Source: Thermoflexus sp. (GTDB lineage Bacteria; Chloroflexota; Anaerolineae; Aggregatilineales; Aggregatilineaceae). From it: DNA of 64,000 nt. The position numbers were made by a program, and so were the translations under genes. Below the pieces are notes generated by a model. The model searched no databases. It was not told where the DNA came from and saw only the letters and a program-made list of their open reading frames with translations. Within the stretch, counting starts at the first letter, position 1; every line of letters starts with the position of its first letter. Shown piece by piece: positions 11,684-19,452 of this stretch. The stretch covers positions 1 through 64,000 of the forward strand of contig DYGX01000002.1 in assembly GCA_020724465.1 (NCBI GenBank). The letters run 5' to 3'.

Positions 11684-12967
11684 TCAGCGCGCGGTGGCGG
11701 GCTGCTCGCCGCCTTCCGCCACGGCCGGGCGCGTCACGGCGCGGCGACGCACGACACGCACTACGTTCGGGTAGAGCCGCAGATAGCGCACGCCGAGTGT
11801 CCAGCCCAGCCAGCTATAGCCGACGATCCCCGCTGCGACACCCCACTCGATCAGCGACGGCTCGTAGGTGTTGATGGGGAACACATCCAGCACGCCGGGC
11901 GACCAGTCCAGCGGGACGACCAGGCCGGAGAGCGTCACATTCCAGCGATTGATCACCAGCCCGGCAACGACCATCAGCGCGCCGAGCATCAGCATGTAGC
12001 GGTTGCGGCGCAGGCGCGGCCACAGGAAGATGATGGCTGGCACCAGCGCGCCCATCAGCACCTCGCCCCACCAGAACGTGAAGTCGTACGGCGTGTTTTC
12101 GTTGAGGATGCGGATGCTGGCCGCGTGTCCTGGGACGTGGCTGTAGTAGTTGACCGACATCCAGCTCCACAGCTTGAGATAGAGATACGCCAGGCTGGCG
12201 AAGCCGACAAAGCGCGCCACCCCTTGCAGCACGTCTTCTGGCACCATGCGCTTCTGCATCAGTTCGCCGGAGATCATGGTGACCAGTAGCGTGAGCGCCG
12301 GCCCCGCTGCGACGGCGGACAGGATAAACAGCACGGGCGCGGTGGGCGAGAACCATACCGGGCGGGCGGTCAGAATGCCATACGTCGCGCCCAGCGACGA
12401 CTGGTGGACCATCGAGATGCCCATACCGATCAGCGCCACCACCGGCATCACCTGGTGAAGCCGGTGCCCCAGCCAACGCGCCAGGCTGTAGCGGTTAAGC
12501 GGCGTGCTCTCAACGATGATGGGGGTGAATTCCAGGACTAGCACGGTGGTGTAGAACATCACTGCGATCGTGATCTCCCACAACACCGAGTGCGGGTTCC
12601 AGTACAGCACCGGGTGGTAGAAGCGGTCGGGCCGGCCGATGTCCACGAACAGCGCCAGCATAGCGGACGTGTATCCCAGCAGGCCCACGAAGACCGCAGC
12701 CCGCGCGATGGACGCGTAGTGCTTGAGACCGAAGACATAGACGGCTGCGGACAGCGTGAACGCCCCGGCGCCTAGCGCGATCGACGACAGGTCGATCACA
12801 ATCCACAGCCCCCAGGGAAGCTCGTCAGTCAGGTTAGTGACCCGCAACCCTTCGATCAGCACCCGCGCACCGGAATAGACCCCGATCGCGACCATTGTGA
12901 ACAGAAACAGGTACCAGATGGCGAGCAGCGGAGATCGGCGGGCGGTTCTTCCGGCTAGACTGATCAT
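11684..12967 (-). CDS. NrfD/PsrC-family quinone-interacting membrane subunit
   Basis: This 427-residue integral membrane protein matches the NrfD family, which exchanges electrons between the quinone pool and a partner iron-sulfur protein. About nine or ten hydrophobic segments span the length. Near residues 45-75 the segment ELPWGLWIVIDLSSIALGAG is typical of the family; a later MVHQSSLGATYG segment also matches. The start overlaps the iron-sulfur gene by four bases, the usual NrfC-NrfD gene order. It is the last gene of the four-gene cytochrome operon. The physiological direction (quinol oxidation or quinone reduction) cannot be told from sequence. Confidence 0.88.
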   Translation of the reverse strand: MISLAGRTARRSPLLAIWYLFLFTMVAIGVYSGARVLIEGLRVTNLTDELPWGLWIVIDLSSIALGAGAFTLSAAVYVFGLKHYASIARAAVFVGLLGYTSAMLALFVDIGRPDRFYHPVLYWNPHSVLWEITIAVMFYTTVLVLEFTPIIVESTPLNRYSLARWLGHRLHQVMPVVALIGMGISMVHQSSLGATYGILTARPVWFSPTAPVLFILSAVAAGPALTLLVTMISGELMQKRMVPEDVLQGVARFVGFASLAYLYLKLWSWMSVNYYSHVPGHAASIRILNENTPYDFTFWWGEVLMGALVPAIIFLWPRLRRNRYMLMLGALMVVAGLVINRWNVTLSGLVVPLDWSPGVLDVFPINTYEPSLIEWGVAAGIVGYSWLGWTLGVRYLRLYPNVVRVVRRRAVTRPAVAEGGEQPATAR

Positions 12968-13806
12968 ATCGCCAGGCCCTCCGGTGGAATGTAGTAGACG
13001 TTTGGCTCGGTGCCCAGATCCTCGCGCAGGCGGAACGTTGCCGTCGAGGCGATAATCCGCGACACCTCGCTCTCAGGGTTGTTGAGGTCGCCGAAATAGC
13101 GGGCGGTGACCGGGCAGATATTGACACATGCGGGTGTCGCCGCCGGATCAACCCCCGGAATCAGACCGGCAGCCAGTCCGGCGTCGATCCGGTGAATGCA
13201 GAACGTGCATTTCTCCACCACACCACGAGGCCGCCTTGGGACTTCGGGCGTACCCCATTCCGGGGCGCGCGGGTTCGGCTCGTCGCCGCGCGCTTCCCAG
13301 TTGAAGGAGCGCGCTCCGTACGGGCAGGCCACCTCGCAATAGCGGCAGCCGATGCATTTGTCGTAGTCCATCACCACCAGGCCATCTTCGCGGCTGTAGG
13401 TGGCGCTGACCGGGCAGACGGATACGCACGGCGCGTTGTTACAGTGCAGGCAAGGGCGGGTCATGTGGAAGATGTCACCCGTGGGTGTCTGGTCCACAAT
13501 GTGCACGTTCCACCGCATCGCGTCGGTGACGTCGTTCGTCGCCTGACAGGCATACACGCAGTATTCACAGCCGATGCACTTGCTCAGGTCGATGACCATG
13601 CCCCAGCGCGGCTTGTCCGTGCTGGCTGCCGCGTAGCGCTCGCGATCGATGTTGCCGCCCAGGATCTTCTGAAACAAGGGGTTGAGCGGATCCGCCAGGA
13701 TATTCGCGAGGGCAACGGACATGCCCGCGCCAACCAGCAGCATCACAAACTCGCGCCGTGTGAGCAGCTGTTCTCGGGCGTTGTTGTTAGTGTTCCGCGT
13801 GCTCAT
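12964..13806 (-). CDS. Tat-exported 4x[4Fe-4S] ferredoxin-type subunit (NrfC/HybA-like)
   Basis: The 280-residue protein passes electrons between the cytochromes and the NrfD subunit on the outer face of the membrane. A twin-arginine motif (TRREFVMLL near residue 17) followed by a hydrophobic stretch indicates Tat export. Sixteen cluster cysteines are arranged in four groups: CIGCEYCVYAC, CLHCNNAPCVSVCP, CIGCRYCEVACP and CTFC with CVNICP. This is the NrfC/HybA/PsrB pattern. It overlaps the upstream cytochrome gene by 20 bases and the nrfD-like gene by four, so the three are almost certainly translated together. Confidence 0.92.
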   Translation of the reverse strand: MSTRNTNNNAREQLLTRREFVMLLVGAGMSVALANILADPLNPLFQKILGGNIDRERYAAASTDKPRWGMVIDLSKCIGCEYCVYACQATNDVTDAMRWNVHIVDQTPTGDIFHMTRPCLHCNNAPCVSVCPVSATYSREDGLVVMDYDKCIGCRYCEVACPYGARSFNWEARGDEPNPRAPEWGTPEVPRRPRGVVEKCTFCIHRIDAGLAAGLIPGVDPAATPACVNICPVTARYFGDLNNPESEVSRIIASTATFRLREDLGTEPNVYYIPPEGLAI

Positions 13807-14950
13807 CAGGGTGCTCTTTATCGACTTTAACCTCTTCGATGATCTCGGTCTGGCCGTTCCGGCTCAGTTTGGGCAGCAGGATCAAGGCGATCACGGCACC
13901 CACCCCCAGCCCGATGATCAGCCCTTGAATGAGCTGGATGTAATTGGTTTCGCCGTCTCCCCCCGACGGGCTGCGCGCCAGCTCCTGCTCCATTGAGGCC
14001 AGCTGCTGCCGAAGGGAATCGCGCTCAATGCGCAGCGTCTCATCTGTGCCAATCAGCTCGGCCCATACCCCGCTGCGCTCAAGCTCCTCGTGACATGTGT
14101 TGCAGGCGCGCGTCTGAACAACCATGCGATGATCGGTCGGCTCGTGGCTTTCGGAGATAAGCTGGATCTCCGGGTCCAGGCCCATGTGGCAGCTCGCGCA
14201 GGTGACGTTGTACTCGCTTTCGAGATGCTTGGCATGCACGTAGATGTTGGCGGGCGCCTGGTGGCAGTTCTCGCACAGCAGCGTGATATCCTGAATGCGC
14301 ATCTGCTGGCCGTGGGGCAGGTGGCACACCGCGCAGCCGAGCGATCCCATATTGGCGTGCGGGCTTTCCGCCCATTCAGCAAACGACTCGGTGTGACAGT
14401 CGCCACACACCACCGCGACCAGGGTGGGCTGGTCTTCGGTGGCGGGGACATCGTGCGCTCCGTGGCAGTCGACACAGGTTGCCGCTTCCAGGTTGCCCCG
14501 CGCGATCGCTTCCAGGTGCGCGCTGTCTGCCAGCAGCGTGTTGTGGCACTCGCCGCAAACCTGCGAGGTCTCGATCCGGTAGGCGCGCGCGCTGGCGGGC
14601 GACGGACCACTGTGCGGGAAGATATCCTCGCCGTGGCAGTCGATGCAGCCCAGCGGCGTGCTGCTGGCGGTGCCATGCACCGAGTCTGCGATCAGCGCGG
14701 GCGGAACATACAGGTTAAGTACGCTACCGTCGGCCAGGGTCATGACCCGTCCGGGCTGGCTGTGACAGATCGCGCAGTAGCTGTTGTTCGGGCCAGCGGG
14801 CGCACCTTCCGCTGGCCCGTCACCGCCATCCTGTGCCAGCGCGACAGGTACAGCACTTCCCAGGGCCAGCGCGCCGCCAACGATCAGCAGGGCAGCCCCC
14901 AGCCCTGCGATCAGCAGAGGAAGTAGAAAGCGATGTTGAAAACGGCTCAT
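13787..14950 (-). CDS. membrane-anchored nonaheme cytochrome c
   Basis: The 387-residue protein carries nine CXXCH haem-binding motifs (CAICH, CIDCH, CGECH, CVDCH, CGDCH, CAVCH, CENCH, CASCH, CNTCH) after an N-terminal signal/anchor. Behind the last haem motif there is a charged heptad-like helix (IERDSLRQQLASMEQEL). A C-terminal transmembrane segment (IQGLIIGLGVGAVIALILL) and a short acidic tail follow. It is therefore probably tethered outside the membrane on a coiled-coil stalk. No CXXCK motif is present, so it is not an NrfA-type nitrite reductase. The start at 14950 gives a signal sequence directly at the N-terminus. Confidence 0.88.
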   Translation of the reverse strand: MSRFQHRFLLPLLIAGLGAALLIVGGALALGSAVPVALAQDGGDGPAEGAPAGPNNSYCAICHSQPGRVMTLADGSVLNLYVPPALIADSVHGTASSTPLGCIDCHGEDIFPHSGPSPASARAYRIETSQVCGECHNTLLADSAHLEAIARGNLEAATCVDCHGAHDVPATEDQPTLVAVVCGDCHTESFAEWAESPHANMGSLGCAVCHLPHGQQMRIQDITLLCENCHQAPANIYVHAKHLESEYNVTCASCHMGLDPEIQLISESHEPTDHRMVVQTRACNTCHEELERSGVWAELIGTDETLRIERDSLRQQLASMEQELARSPSGGDGETNYIQLIQGLIIGLGVGAVIALILLPKLSRNGQTEIIEEVKVDKEHPDEHAEH

Positions 14951-14991
14951 GCCACTGTTCCTTGTCGTTTCGGTCCGACAGTGTTCTGAAG

Positions 14992-16638
14992 TTACTGGCC
15001 GGTTGCTGCCCCGGCTTCGACTTCGTCGTTCAACCCTAGCTCGCTCTCGACGCGGTCGAGCACGATGTCGGTATACACGTAGTTGTGAACGCCCAGGCTC
15101 CCGTCGCCCTCGACAAAGCGCAGCGCGGCTTCGACCCATGCCGGGGTTTCTCCGGTCAGCGCGGCGCGGGCCGCTTCCAGGCGCGCACGGGTGTCGGCCT
15201 GGATGTCGTCAATCAACACCTGGAGACTCGGTGCGTCCACTTTGTCCGCGTGGCAGATCGAGCAGGAGTCTTGCAGCGCGGCGATGTTGGCGGCCACGCC
15301 CGGCATCACCGGATGGAAGGCATGGCTGCCGCGTGTGGCCGTTTCGACCGGCACCCTCGGCATGTGACAGGTGACACAGGTTGGCCCGCCGGCTGCCACG
15401 AAATGCGCCGAAGGCACGCCGTCGATCCCTTGGATGATCGATTCACCTTCGTACATTTCCTTGACCGGCGCGTGGATTACGCCTGTAACGTCAGTGTCTT
15501 GATGGCACGAGACACACAGCGCGTACGGCTCGCCCGCCAGCAAGAAATCGACCGTGGCCGCCTCATCCTCGCCCGGCGCTTGATGGATCACATGGCAGCT
15601 CACGCATGTCACGCCGTGAGCCGCGCTGGCAACCGTTACCGGCTGCGTGCTTTCGCCCTCGGTTCCGTCCGCTGCCTCGGCACGCGCCTGGCCCCAGGCA
15701 TAATCGGCGCTGTGGCACGCCAGGCACGCGTCCTGCGCGCGCTCGCTGGAGCGAAGCCCTTCGAGCGCGCTCGCATGGGTTGAGTTCAGCCACTCGTTGA
15801 ACTGCATGTTCGGGTGGCTCGCGTGGCCGCTGACCCACCAGTGCGTCGCGTCATCCGGCGCGACCAGCGCGTAGCCGCTATCCAGCAGCTCGTCGCCGGC
15901 CAGGTAATCGGTCGGGTAGGGGTGCCCGTCCGGCATGGCGCCTGCGCTGTGACATTGGCCGCAGATCGCCGCGTCGGGCGACAGAACAATGCTGGCGCGT
16001 TGTTCCGCAGGGGTAGCCGTGCGTGACCGGACTGCCTCAAAGTGGGCGCTGCCGGGGCCGTGGCACGTCTCGCACTGGACGCCGTTTTCCAGCCATGTCC
16101 CGGTGTCCACGTTGAACCCCGTCACGTGGCAGGCCGCGCACTGGTCTTCCCAGTCGTATTCGGGGGCGGGCCAGTCCTCGGCCAGGGTATACGGTTGCCA
16201 GCGCCCGGCGATGACATTCCACTCGACCGGCAACACCAGATATTGCGTTGCGGTGGGTTCGGCAGCCTCTTCGTCATCCCCGGCGGCCTCGCCCTCAACG
16301 GCGATCAGGTAGCGCTGCACGTAGCGCCCCGTGCCGAGCGTGTAGGCGATGTCGTCGATGGTCAGCGCCCGTGGCTCGTCCTCGCCCGGAAGCTGGAGCA
16401 CCAGCACATCCGATTGCTGGTTGAAGTCGCCCAGCACAGCACCTGCCTGCGATGGCTCGGAGAGCGTGAGGGCGTGGCGCGATTCATAGTGAATCGGCCC
16501 GACGTCCCGATGGCACCCAAAGCACAGGCGAGAGCCGATGTACTCTGGCTTCTGATCGTCCTGCGCCTGAGCCGGGGTGATGGCGATCCAGAACGCGGCC
16601 GCCAGGATGATGATAACCAGCAGCATGAACCGTCTCAT
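14992..16638 (-). CDS. secreted nonaheme cytochrome c
   Basis: The 548-residue protein begins with a clear signal peptide (cleavage near AQAQ-DD) and carries nine CXXCH motifs: CFGCH, CAACH, CETCH, CGQCH, CLACH, CVSCH, CVSCH, CVTCH and CSICH. There is no C-terminal anchor and no CXXCK lysine-ligated haem. The spacing, with long insertions between haem motifs 1 and 2 and between 4 and 5, resembles doubled-CXXCH multihaem families. It is the first gene of the operon with the second cytochrome, the iron-sulfur protein and the NrfD subunit. It may be the terminal reductase, an oxidase of an external donor, or simply an electron carrier; the sequence does not decide. Confidence 0.85.
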   Translation of the reverse strand: MRRFMLLVIIILAAAFWIAITPAQAQDDQKPEYIGSRLCFGCHRDVGPIHYESRHALTLSEPSQAGAVLGDFNQQSDVLVLQLPGEDEPRALTIDDIAYTLGTGRYVQRYLIAVEGEAAGDDEEAAEPTATQYLVLPVEWNVIAGRWQPYTLAEDWPAPEYDWEDQCAACHVTGFNVDTGTWLENGVQCETCHGPGSAHFEAVRSRTATPAEQRASIVLSPDAAICGQCHSAGAMPDGHPYPTDYLAGDELLDSGYALVAPDDATHWWVSGHASHPNMQFNEWLNSTHASALEGLRSSERAQDACLACHSADYAWGQARAEAADGTEGESTQPVTVASAAHGVTCVSCHVIHQAPGEDEAATVDFLLAGEPYALCVSCHQDTDVTGVIHAPVKEMYEGESIIQGIDGVPSAHFVAAGGPTCVTCHMPRVPVETATRGSHAFHPVMPGVAANIAALQDSCSICHADKVDAPSLQVLIDDIQADTRARLEAARAALTGETPAWVEAALRFVEGDGSLGVHNYVYTDIVLDRVESELGLNDEVEAGAATGQ

Positions 16639-16748: not shown

Positions 16749-17118
16749 AGTGACGGAAGTCACCCTACCGTCTGCGCTGTTGCTTGATTTGGACGATTCC
16801 GGTCGTGTGTTGCGCCCCGGCGCGGCGTTTCAGCGCCGCGCGCGCAAGTCTTTACGTGCTCAGACGGCCTTCGCCGCACCGGGTCGAGGTGGCCTGGGCC
16901 AGCCGCCGCGTACCCGACGCAAGCGCGCCTGCGAGCGCAGGTCGTGCCTGACGCGCACGTGATCTGCGCAGGCTGCCACAGCGCGGCGTTCACTAACAAT
17001 GTGGCGGCGGGCCAGAGTGGACTCGCGCTGTGCTGCGGGTAGAGCAAGGTCTTTACCAGCCTAGCACAACTCTTGAAAAGGTGCATCTGTGCATAGTGCC
17101 AGCGTGATCGCGCGGCGG
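16749..17118. other. gene-free intergenic stretch
   Basis: This is the remainder of a 480-base gap between the histidine kinase and the cytochrome operon. It holds a GC-rich inverted repeat GCGCGGCG/CGCCGCGC near 16819-16840 without a T-run. I see no supported gene. A lone CXXCH in the plus strand near 16965-16980 has no start or homologous context. Confidence 0.4.
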
Positions 17119-18993
17119 TCAGGGCTGTGTGGGGTGTGCCGCCGACGGAGTCTGGAGCGGCTCATGGGTCTGTGTCGAGGTTGAACCTATCCGCTCGCCT
17201 TTGGCCGCCAGAGGAAGCTGAACCGAAAACGTCGTCCCCTGGCCCTCGGTGCTGTGCACGCGGATCTGCCCGCCGTAGTGTTTGACAAGCTGTTTGACGA
17301 TTGCCAGGCCCAGTCCAGTCCCATGATACTCGCGCGCGCGGGCGTTGCGGGCGCGGTAGAACTCGTCCCAGATATGCGGCAGCTCGTCCGCCGGGATGCC
17401 GATGCCAGTGTCGATCACGTCAAGCGTGAGCCACTCGTGGTTCCATGTCAGGATCGCCTCGACACGGCCCCCTTCGGGCGTGTATTTGATGGCGTTTTCG
17501 ATCAGGTTGATTACGATGCGCCTGATATCTTCCGCGTTGGCGCAGATCCACAGGGCCGGGGCGTTCTGGGCGTTCGTCAGCAGGGAGACGCCGCGCTGCT
17601 CCGCCTGAGGGCGCAGTTGCTCGCAGACGCTTTTTAGGTGCAGGGTGAAATCCAGCTCATCGGTGGGGCGGCGAACAAGATGCTCTTCCCGGCCCGCTGC
17701 CAGGTCAAGCAGGTCACCGATCAACTCCTGCAACAGGTCGAGGCGCGCGCCCACGCGACGGACGATCTCGCACTGGGTTTCGCTCATGTCGCCCGCGTAT
17801 CCCTGGCAAAGCGTGCTGATCAGGCTCTGCGCTGCGGCAACCGGCGCGCGCAGCTCGTGGGTGACGGTGTGCAAGAAGCGCATTTTTGCCGCGTCGATAT
17901 CCGCCAGCGTCTGGTACTGCAGCGCATTGGAGAGCGCGATCCCGGCCTGTGCGGTCATGGCCGTCAGAAAGGGAATGTCTGCCTGGGTGAAGTGGTGAGG
18001 CGCGCTGCTGTACACGCGCAGAACGCCCAGCACCTGACCATCGACGCCTGGGATGGGGGCAACGATCCCGGAGAGAATTCCCTCGCGCAGCAGAGCCTGT
18101 TTGTACATGAAGCGATCTTCCCGGCGAACATCCGGGATCAGCACCGTCTGGCCGCGGATGGCTTGCAGGTCAATGGGGCTTTTGGCGATCTGAACCGGGC
18201 CCTTCCCAACATAGTTCTCGCTGAGTCCGTATCCGGCGGCGAACTCCAGCGTCGAGCCGTCCGGCGACAGCAGGCGCACAATCCCGGCAGTGGCTTTGAG
18301 GGTCTGGGCGCACATTTCCAGCAGCCGGATCAGCACTTCCTGCACATCCAGGGACGAGGTAATCACGCGGGCGGTCTGATAGAGCGCGGTTGCTTCGCGC
18401 TCGCGCCGCCGCAGGCGCGAGGCCACCACAACAGCCAGAGTGAACAGCAGCAGCGTAGTCAGCACGAACGCGAGCATTACCGTCGACGCGAACCACACGC
18501 TGCGGTAGAGACCGGTATGGCCCCAGACGTCCACGTGCGGGATGGCGCCGCTGTATTCCAGCCGCGCAATGGCGATCATCAGGGCTGTTGCGCCGATGGC
18601 GAGCATCGCGGCAGCCGGCGCGGAGAGAATGAGCGCCGTTCCGAACAGGTGGATCACGAAATAGATGATGCAGGGGCTTTCGACCCCGCCGGTGAAGTGA
18701 AAGATCGTCAGCAGCGAGAAGAGATCGAGCGCCACTTGGGCGTAGGCCAGCGCGGTGAGAAAGCGGCTCAGGCGGCGCAGCCCATACCACAGCACGCTGT
18801 TGAACGCCAGATGCAGGATGCCCACACCGATCAAAGGCAGCGGCACGAACTCGGTGCCCGGCACCAGGGCGCCGAAAAGCGCCAGCGCCAGCGCGCCCAG
18901 GCCGGTTGTCCAGCGCCACAGCATCAGAATGCGGAAGTTCGCGCCCAGCTCATCTGCGGTGGGCACCAGCCCCGGCGCAGTCGTCAGATGCAT
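17119..18993 (-). CDS. membrane sensor histidine kinase with GAF domain
   Basis: The 624-residue protein has six or so transmembrane segments within residues 20-195, then a GAF domain (about 205-355). A HisKA helix follows with the phosphoacceptor histidine near residue 379 (LHTVTHELRAPVAAA). The HATPase domain shows N-box NLIENAIKYTPEGG, G1 DTGIGIP, F-box DEFYRARN and G2 GTGLGLAIVKQL. The input signal is unknown. No response regulator is adjacent, so it is an orphan kinase. The start at 18993 has GAGGG upstream and removes 37 unconserved residues. It is divergent from the GltD-like gene. Confidence 0.92.
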   Translation of the reverse strand: MHLTTAPGLVPTADELGANFRILMLWRWTTGLGALALALFGALVPGTEFVPLPLIGVGILHLAFNSVLWYGLRRLSRFLTALAYAQVALDLFSLLTIFHFTGGVESPCIIYFVIHLFGTALILSAPAAAMLAIGATALMIAIARLEYSGAIPHVDVWGHTGLYRSVWFASTVMLAFVLTTLLLFTLAVVVASRLRRREREATALYQTARVITSSLDVQEVLIRLLEMCAQTLKATAGIVRLLSPDGSTLEFAAGYGLSENYVGKGPVQIAKSPIDLQAIRGQTVLIPDVRREDRFMYKQALLREGILSGIVAPIPGVDGQVLGVLRVYSSAPHHFTQADIPFLTAMTAQAGIALSNALQYQTLADIDAAKMRFLHTVTHELRAPVAAAQSLISTLCQGYAGDMSETQCEIVRRVGARLDLLQELIGDLLDLAAGREEHLVRRPTDELDFTLHLKSVCEQLRPQAEQRGVSLLTNAQNAPALWICANAEDIRRIVINLIENAIKYTPEGGRVEAILTWNHEWLTLDVIDTGIGIPADELPHIWDEFYRARNARAREYHGTGLGLAIVKQLVKHYGGQIRVHSTEGQGTTFSVQLPLAAKGERIGSTSTQTHEPLQTPSAAHPTQP

Positions 18994-19452
18994 GGCGTGC
19001 CCTCGTCGGTAAGCGCATGCCCGATCGTCCAGAGTCGTGCTGATCCCGTTGGGTGAGTCAGACAAACGCGTGGGAAGGGCGTGGCGCGGGAAGGCCCAAC
19101 CCACGCCGTACGCGGCGTCGATCTGGGTTCAGTCGGGTGACAGTTGGCTAGAGAACGCTGCATGCCGGACACGTCGGCCCGTTCTTTCCGGAAAACATTT
19201 TCGGCACCAAAACATTGAGGCATCGATCTATTGGTGTTTAGTATACTGCGGAACGGATCGCCAACCAGTGCCTTCTGGCACTTCTTCGCATGCGGCTTGA
19301 GGTTTTTTTTTGAAGACTGTGCAACAAATATAACCCCCAAGACACGATACCTGGCACTATCGGGCTGGCGCTGTTTGCCGTATGGTATTTGTGCGCTAAA
19401 GAAAGCACTTATTTTGTTTTATCGTCCGTTCTATTCGGCAAGGAGTACCTTC
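18994..19452. other. divergent intergenic region, kinase / GltD-like gene
   Basis: This 459-base region is more AT-rich in its right half than its surroundings. It contains TATACT at 19242-19247 and TATAAC at 19329-19334 as isolated -10-like hexamers, but neither has a well-spaced -35. A run of nine T residues occurs near 19302-19311. No gene is supported here. Confidence 0.35.

Follow-up and report, generated by a model that had tools for sequence, protein, structure and literature searches.

A conserved four-gene operon of Chloroflexota that joins an OcwA-type nonahaem cytochrome to an NrfCD-type module

What is the function of an operon that encodes two nonahaem cytochromes, an exported iron–sulfur (FeS) protein and an NrfD-type membrane protein? 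Such an operon occupies positions 16638-11684, on the minus strand, of a 64,000-nucleotide stretch of Thermoflexus sp. DNA (phylum Chloroflexota, order Aggregatilineales; GenBank assembly GCA_020724465.1, contig DYGX01000002.1, positions 1 to 64,000), which is called the window here. A sequence-only reading, whose coordinates proved exact, had described it as a possibly distinct quinone-linked complex with no catalytic subunit. We found that the operon is real and conserved, and that the first of its genes, cytA, encodes a sequence homologue of the catalytic terminal reductase OcwA. NrfCD-multihaem complexes are known; no description of one joined to an OcwA-type cytochrome was found in the literature searched. 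The operon and its 3' flank are composed as follows.

14992..16638, minus strand: cytA, nonahaem c-type cytochrome of the OcwA family, 548 amino acids (aa), with an N-terminal signal or anchor segment
13787..14950, minus strand: cytB, nonahaem c-type cytochrome, 387 aa, with hydrophobic segments at both termini
12964..13806, minus strand: FeS protein with 4x[4Fe-4S], NrfC/DsrO/QrcC-like, 280 aa, with the twin-arginine (Tat)-like signal TRREF
11684..12967, minus strand: NrfD-family integral membrane subunit (Pfam NrfD) of the long QrcD/HmcC/HybB-like type, 427 aa
11637..11661, minus strand: terminator-like hairpin with a T-tail, 11 pairs (8 GC), a consensus match only

Because the genes are separated by 41 bp or overlap (cytB and the FeS gene by 20 bp, the FeS and NrfD genes by 4 bp), and because the terminator-like hairpin lies downstream, the four look like a single operon. 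The cytB product was taken as 387 aa; an alternative open reading frame (ORF) of 450 aa begins too early, within cytA. Both cytochromes contain nine CXXCH motifs and no CXXCK, and all 18 cysteines of each fall within haem motifs. Shuffling of their residues (n=2000) gave on average 0.03-0.05 CXXCH and at most 1-2, and these two are the only frames with two or more CXXCH in the window. The FeS protein carries TRREF near its N-terminus, ahead of a hydrophobic stretch, and 16 cysteines in a four-cluster arrangement, and the fourth product matches Pfam NrfD (E=1.7e-32). No molybdopterin or hydrogenase gene adjoins the operon among the translated neighbouring ORFs of the window. The inventory given earlier, namely eighteen CXXCH in two adjacent proteins, a Tat-type four-cluster protein and NrfD in one operon, and neither molybdopterin subunit nor hydrogenase, was thus confirmed.

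In contrast to this, the statement that a catalytic subunit is lacking did not hold. In a phmmer search with the window protein alone, cytA matched OcwA (PDB 6I5B) over residues 29-534 with E=1e-47, followed by a multihaem cytochrome, 6qvm (E=5e-20), which we take to be probably OmhA of Carboxydothermus ferrireducens. The homology claim is based on this single-sequence search, since the profile score is inflated by the presence of OcwA in the profile itself. The two proteins are 37% identical in the alignment, the homology covers the full length, and the nine CXXCH motifs are in register. OcwA, the protein of PDB 6I5B (PMC7911101), acts as a terminal reductase with nine haems at the surface of Thermincola potens and is related to c554, NrfA and MccA (PMC6703420). 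Its two open-site haems are bound through plain CXXCH, six haems are bis-His and haem 9 is His-Met (PMC6703420), so cytA may be catalytic even without CXXCK.

An alignment of 14 Chloroflexota sequences with OcwA showed the nine haem motifs to be invariant, together with seven non-motif histidines, one methionine and H389, the first histidine in the pocket of haem 5. As judged from the alignment, the seven histidines and the methionine could supply the axial ligands that bis-His binding at six haems and His-Met binding at another would require. The pocket histidines of the open haems are partly lost. At haem 2, none of the 14 Chloroflexota sequences has the distal His-His pair of OcwA. At haem 5, ten sequences keep His-His, two have His-Tyr, and the remaining two, those of the window and L023, have His-Ala. 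These pairs are seen at the open haems 2 and 5 of the T. potens protein and are not a known family-defining trait; the OcwA residue numbering was checked through the 99-residue spacing between the two pairs.

These pockets bear on the idea that the operon might encode an ammonifying nitrite or hydroxylamine reductase, analogous to nrfABCD, with an OcwA-type cytochrome in the place of NrfA. Gene order and roles do run parallel to nrfABCD, both compounds are substrates of OcwA (PMC6703420), and the window's genome has NarG while none of its proteins passes the Pfam cut-off for NrfA; the only match there to PF02335, the NrfA family, is cytA itself, at 18.6 bits against a cut-off of 24.1. However, OcwA turns over nitrite with a kcat of just 1 per min (PMC6703420), and the pocket histidines are partly lost, as described above, which together weaken this idea; moreover, the FeS protein does not reach the NrfC cut-off (139 bits against 377.6), nor does any protein of the operon attain an NrfD or NrfA model. 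We therefore regard such a function as rather improbable.

The FeS protein and NrfD together have the make-up of the NrfCD-multihaem kind (SirCD/CbcTU), in which one operon holds a four-cluster FeS protein, NrfD and a multihaem cytochrome but lacks a molybdopterin subunit. Among curated models, the FeS protein narrowly passes DsrO (209 bits; cut-off 200), with QrcC second (185; cut-off 400), and for NrfD the best NCBIfam model is QrcD (255; cut-off 570), followed by HmcC (164; cut-off 550) and HybB, all far under their cut-offs. No NrfD equivalog was listed among the curated model matches of the operon proteins. When NrfD was compared as a profile with the PDB, only 8k9e_C matched, and weakly (annotated NrfD; E=0.04), and a search for the NrfD_2 family matched only another locus (C2:306679), within a molybdopterin enzyme operon. 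HmcB (72 bits; cut-off 420) and HmcA (18; cut-off 400) are not reached either, so the operon does not belong to Hmc; nor does it belong to Qrc, the QrcC and QrcD cut-offs being unreached and the operon having no molybdopterin-like gene for the QrcB slot. These scores support the original suggestion of a multihaem complex that is linked to quinone and differs from Hmc, Qrc and Nrf. The denial of a likeness in composition was too strong, since the order and roles of nrfABCD are paralleled with other families filling the slots.

The DsrO pass, together with a weak match of the cytA profile to MccA (6.3e-9) and the proposal that OcwA/OmhA-related cytochromes serve sulfur respiration in Dethiobacter (PMC10376724), might point to a reductase of sulfite, tetrathionate or thiosulfate related to the octahaem MccA/Otr type. 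Yet OcwA does not reduce sulfite (PMC6703420), DsrP scores 60 bits against a cut-off of 350, and no dsrM-, dsrK- or dsrJ-like gene adjoins the operon, which despite the DsrO pass is thus not of the DsrMKJOP type. We consider sulfur-compound reduction very improbable.

The second cytochrome has hydrophobic segments at residues 5-40 and 336-364. Its profile matched 6r2q_A best (E=2.7e-15); this entry is listed as 'cystathionine beta-synthase', which looks like a mislabel, because we take 6R2Q to be the MtrCAB complex and its chain A to be MtrA. A match to the DmsE-type model TIGR03508 (8.5e-12) is below the cut-off. We infer that cytB is a membrane-anchored electron conduit.

The arrangement was then sought in 61 genomes (the window's own and 60 relatives), in which a strong cytA match was defined as E<1e-40 and linkage was read from the positions of cytA and NrfD matches. 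Strong matches exist in 29 genomes of the order, and in 19 of these the same strand encodes NrfD no more than about 3 kb away; a chance arrangement of the genes is ruled out by this conservation. Five of the 19 have separate genes (G000, G001, G002, G036 and G041), and 14 have a layout in which cytA and cytB appear to be fused (G006, G012, G014, G015, G017, G024, G028, G030, G035, G040, G044, G049, G053 and G056). In eight genomes the sequence itself shows one continuous cytA-cytB frame that holds 17 CXXCH (G040, G030, G035, G053, G044, G056, G012 and G006; loci L026, L028, L030, L035, L036, L039, L041 and L140), and this joining suggests that the two cytochromes work together. The fused call for G014, G015, G017, G024 and G049 is based on a long open frame and the spacing, and in G028 the fused frame is broken. 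The order cytA-cytB-FeS-NrfD was recognized by tblastn in MAG_05 and PMV_1.47 as well. Among 150 genomes sampled evenly across the phylum, only one other gave a strong cytA match, which suggests that the family is concentrated in this order.

The partners of the cytochrome pair differ among relatives. In the NrfD tree, the proteins of fused operons form one clade (100/99) apart from those of unfused four-gene operons, and the window NrfD groups with L023 and L130 (99/95), the latter being a cytB-FeS-NrfD operon without cytA. In the cytA tree, in contrast, four-gene, fused and b561-linked members are interleaved; the last have a cytochrome b561-type protein with a c-haem after cytA-cytB (L027, L029, L031, L032 and L041; the b561/c fusion was assigned from a Pfam run on the L029 protein). 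On these sequences, one cytochrome pair is served by at least three quinone modules, and the exchange of modules around a constant pair argues that the module does serve the pair. Two separate NrfCD-cytA joinings would be the simplest reading of the NrfD tree, whose root is unsure because of long outgroup branches; one joining followed by module exchange would also be compatible with it.

With somewhat better than even confidence, we propose that the operon encodes a menaquinone:extracytoplasmic-acceptor oxidoreductase, in which electrons would pass from quinol through NrfD, the FeS protein, cytB and cytA to an extracellular acceptor; it is probably a compact wire from the respiratory chain to the cell exterior. 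NrfD, to judge from its family, would trade electrons with the membrane quinone pool, and the Tat-exported four-cluster protein would gather them at the outer side of the membrane. Anchored by its hydrophobic segments, cytB may act as a conduit, as its MtrA-like profile suggests, and cytA is predicted to be the outermost component, a terminal oxidoreductase of OcwA type at the exterior of what is probably a monoderm cell. The acceptor would be bulky or extracellular, for example an electrode, a shuttle, humics or Fe(III) and Mn minerals.

We favour outward flow, with quinol oxidation, over inward flow for two reasons. OcwA itself is a terminal reductase, and NrfCD modules that lack a molybdopterin subunit are considered to pass quinol electrons to multihaem cytochromes (PMC11434368, PMC3534657, PMC9386147): SirCD replaces CymA (PMC11434368), and similar modules exist in Melioribacter (PMC3534657) and MBNT15 (PMC9386147). 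In the Chloroflexi isolate Ardenticatena maritima, both anodic and cathodic electron transfer occur and a 7-haem cytochrome has been placed at the surface (PMC5808234), and Anaerolineales with large multihaem cytochromes have been seen in bioanode communities (PMC7399161).

If the flow were reversed, cytA would take electrons from Fe(II), a cathode or a syntrophic partner, and NrfD would reduce menaquinone, feeding nitrate reductase or oxidases. NrfD does score highest with QrcD, then HmcC and HybB; the genome offers sinks in NarG (over its cut-off), two haem-copper oxidase subunits and an alternative-complex-III-like locus (L125); and Ardenticatena couples cathodic current to nitrate (PMC5808234). 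However, all of the QrcD and HybB scores are under the curated cut-offs, the published work on OcwA describes a terminal reductase (PMC6703420), and a hydrogenase-type set adjoins some fused operons (L026) but not that of the window. We consider reversed flow unlikely.

Several points weigh against an outward wire to the cell surface. QrcD and HybB belong to quinone-reducing complexes, and their place among the best NrfD models would fit inward flow. In ten of the 29 genomes, cytA has no adjacent NrfD, although some of these copies are on short contigs. The surface exposure of cytA is presumed from OcwA only, and structure predictions were too poor to use for either cytochrome (predicted local distance difference test score of 35 for cytA from a single sequence, and 48 for cytB from a 13-row alignment).

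Other features surround the operon, and one more row belongs to the list.

17119..19104, minus strand: GAF sensor histidine kinase gene, about 480 bp upstream of the operon

This kinase is a possible regulator of the operon; in several relatives a kinase and a LuxR/NarL-type regulator adjoin cytA. A promoter scan was uninformative (2 sites; 0.9 expected). Upstream of cytA, at window positions 16800-17060 on the plus strand, a short frame with a single CAGCH motif (DAHVICAGCHSAAFTNN) may be a chance occurrence or a decayed fragment. The downstream neighbours were assigned by eye, from translations, as phosphate-transport (pst-like) genes.

Three further redox loci were noted in the window's genome. 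An 8-haem cytochrome (G000:C4, L122:2922-5300), similar to hydrazine dehydrogenase (3.6e-27) far below the cut-off, directly follows broken COX1-like frames with an internal TAG; an 8-haem cytB-like protein (G000:C24, L123:4275-5324) has no adjacent FeS-NrfD; and a molybdopterin enzyme operon (G000:C2, L127:1955-7579) encodes an FeS protein, a 945-aa catalytic subunit (best model PhsA, below cut-off), a further protein and a second NrfD. Many relatives carry, additionally or instead, a second conserved operon with a LysR-like regulator, an 8-haem cytB-like cytochrome, an FeS protein and NrfD (L128, L131, L133, L135, L136, L137, L144 and L145), with a small one-haem protein and a 10-haem cytochrome placed divergently, the latter matching no NCBIfam model. 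The 16-haem cytochrome encoded at L142:6151-8574 contains a cytB-like part and precedes FeS-NrfD, a further fusion of like kind. At L026:1872-6415 and L028:11180-15723, next to the fused 17-haem operon, lies a set of NiFe-hydrogenase type that comprises a large subunit, a 20-kDa subunit and NAD-binding and Fer4_22 proteins and may be an electron partner. In L054 (Desulfobacterales), three cytA-like cytochromes, distant at 24-25% identity, are interspersed with two FeS-NrfD pairs, possibly a parallel outside Chloroflexota.

In the collection of open-licence papers searched, we found no paper that mentions both OcwA and NrfD and none that joins NrfD, Chloroflexi and multihaem electron transfer, and an earlier description elsewhere is possible. 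Thus, of the two findings that would have spoken against the sequence-only reading, homology to a catalytic family is clear, whereas a published account of this operon was not encountered.

How, then, does the operon compare with known systems? SirCD and CbcSTU likewise combine an FeS protein and an NrfD-type membrane protein with a multihaem cytochrome that replaces the molybdopterin subunit (PMC11434368, PMC9386147, PMC3534657; CbcU is called b-type in its paper, among these). They carry other cytochromes, however, whereas the window module is joined to an OcwA-type and an MtrA-like one; the comparison with these systems is one of component make-up. NrfABCD has the same number and order of components (catalytic multihaem cytochrome, multihaem carrier, NrfC and NrfD), but cytA has no CXXCK and is below the PF02335 cut-off, the carrier slot is filled by a protein with nine haems, cytB, and not by one with five, and NrfD belongs to the long QrcD/HybB type. 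Qrc and Hmc supply the closest curated models for NrfD, still under cut-off, and the operon has no QrcB-like or HmcA-type subunit. MtrA is the best match of the cytB profile, yet cytB has nine haems and a C-terminal membrane segment, and no porin partner was seen. Finally, cytA is a full-length nonahaem homologue of OcwA of Thermincola potens and T. ferriacetica with its haem motifs in register, differing in the pocket histidine pairs. The route proposed in Thermincola leads to OcwA through ImdcA, PdcA and CwcA (PMC7911101). In a T. ferriacetica metagenome-assembled genome, contig C19 carries the best match to OcwA, and the only NrfD matches, weak ones, are on C23; they are unlinked, unlike in the window operon.

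To our knowledge, the exit and entry of electrons in cells without an outer membrane are known in outline only, mainly from Thermincola and Carboxydothermus, in which the genes for the surface enzyme lie apart from those for the quinone step. Here, both ends of the putative wire are in one operon, and often both cytochromes in one protein, in several families of a little-cultivated Chloroflexota order. The operon is therefore a concrete four-gene system for expression and testing, and a candidate marker of extracellular electron transfer in Chloroflexota genomes. More tentatively, at somewhat less than even confidence, it may be a one-operon quinone-to-surface wire for cells without an outer membrane, built from OcwA-type cytochromes and NrfCD of two NrfD lineages and ending in a 17-haem single chain, and as such a complete alternative to porin-cytochrome conduits and to the dispersed pathway of Thermincola.

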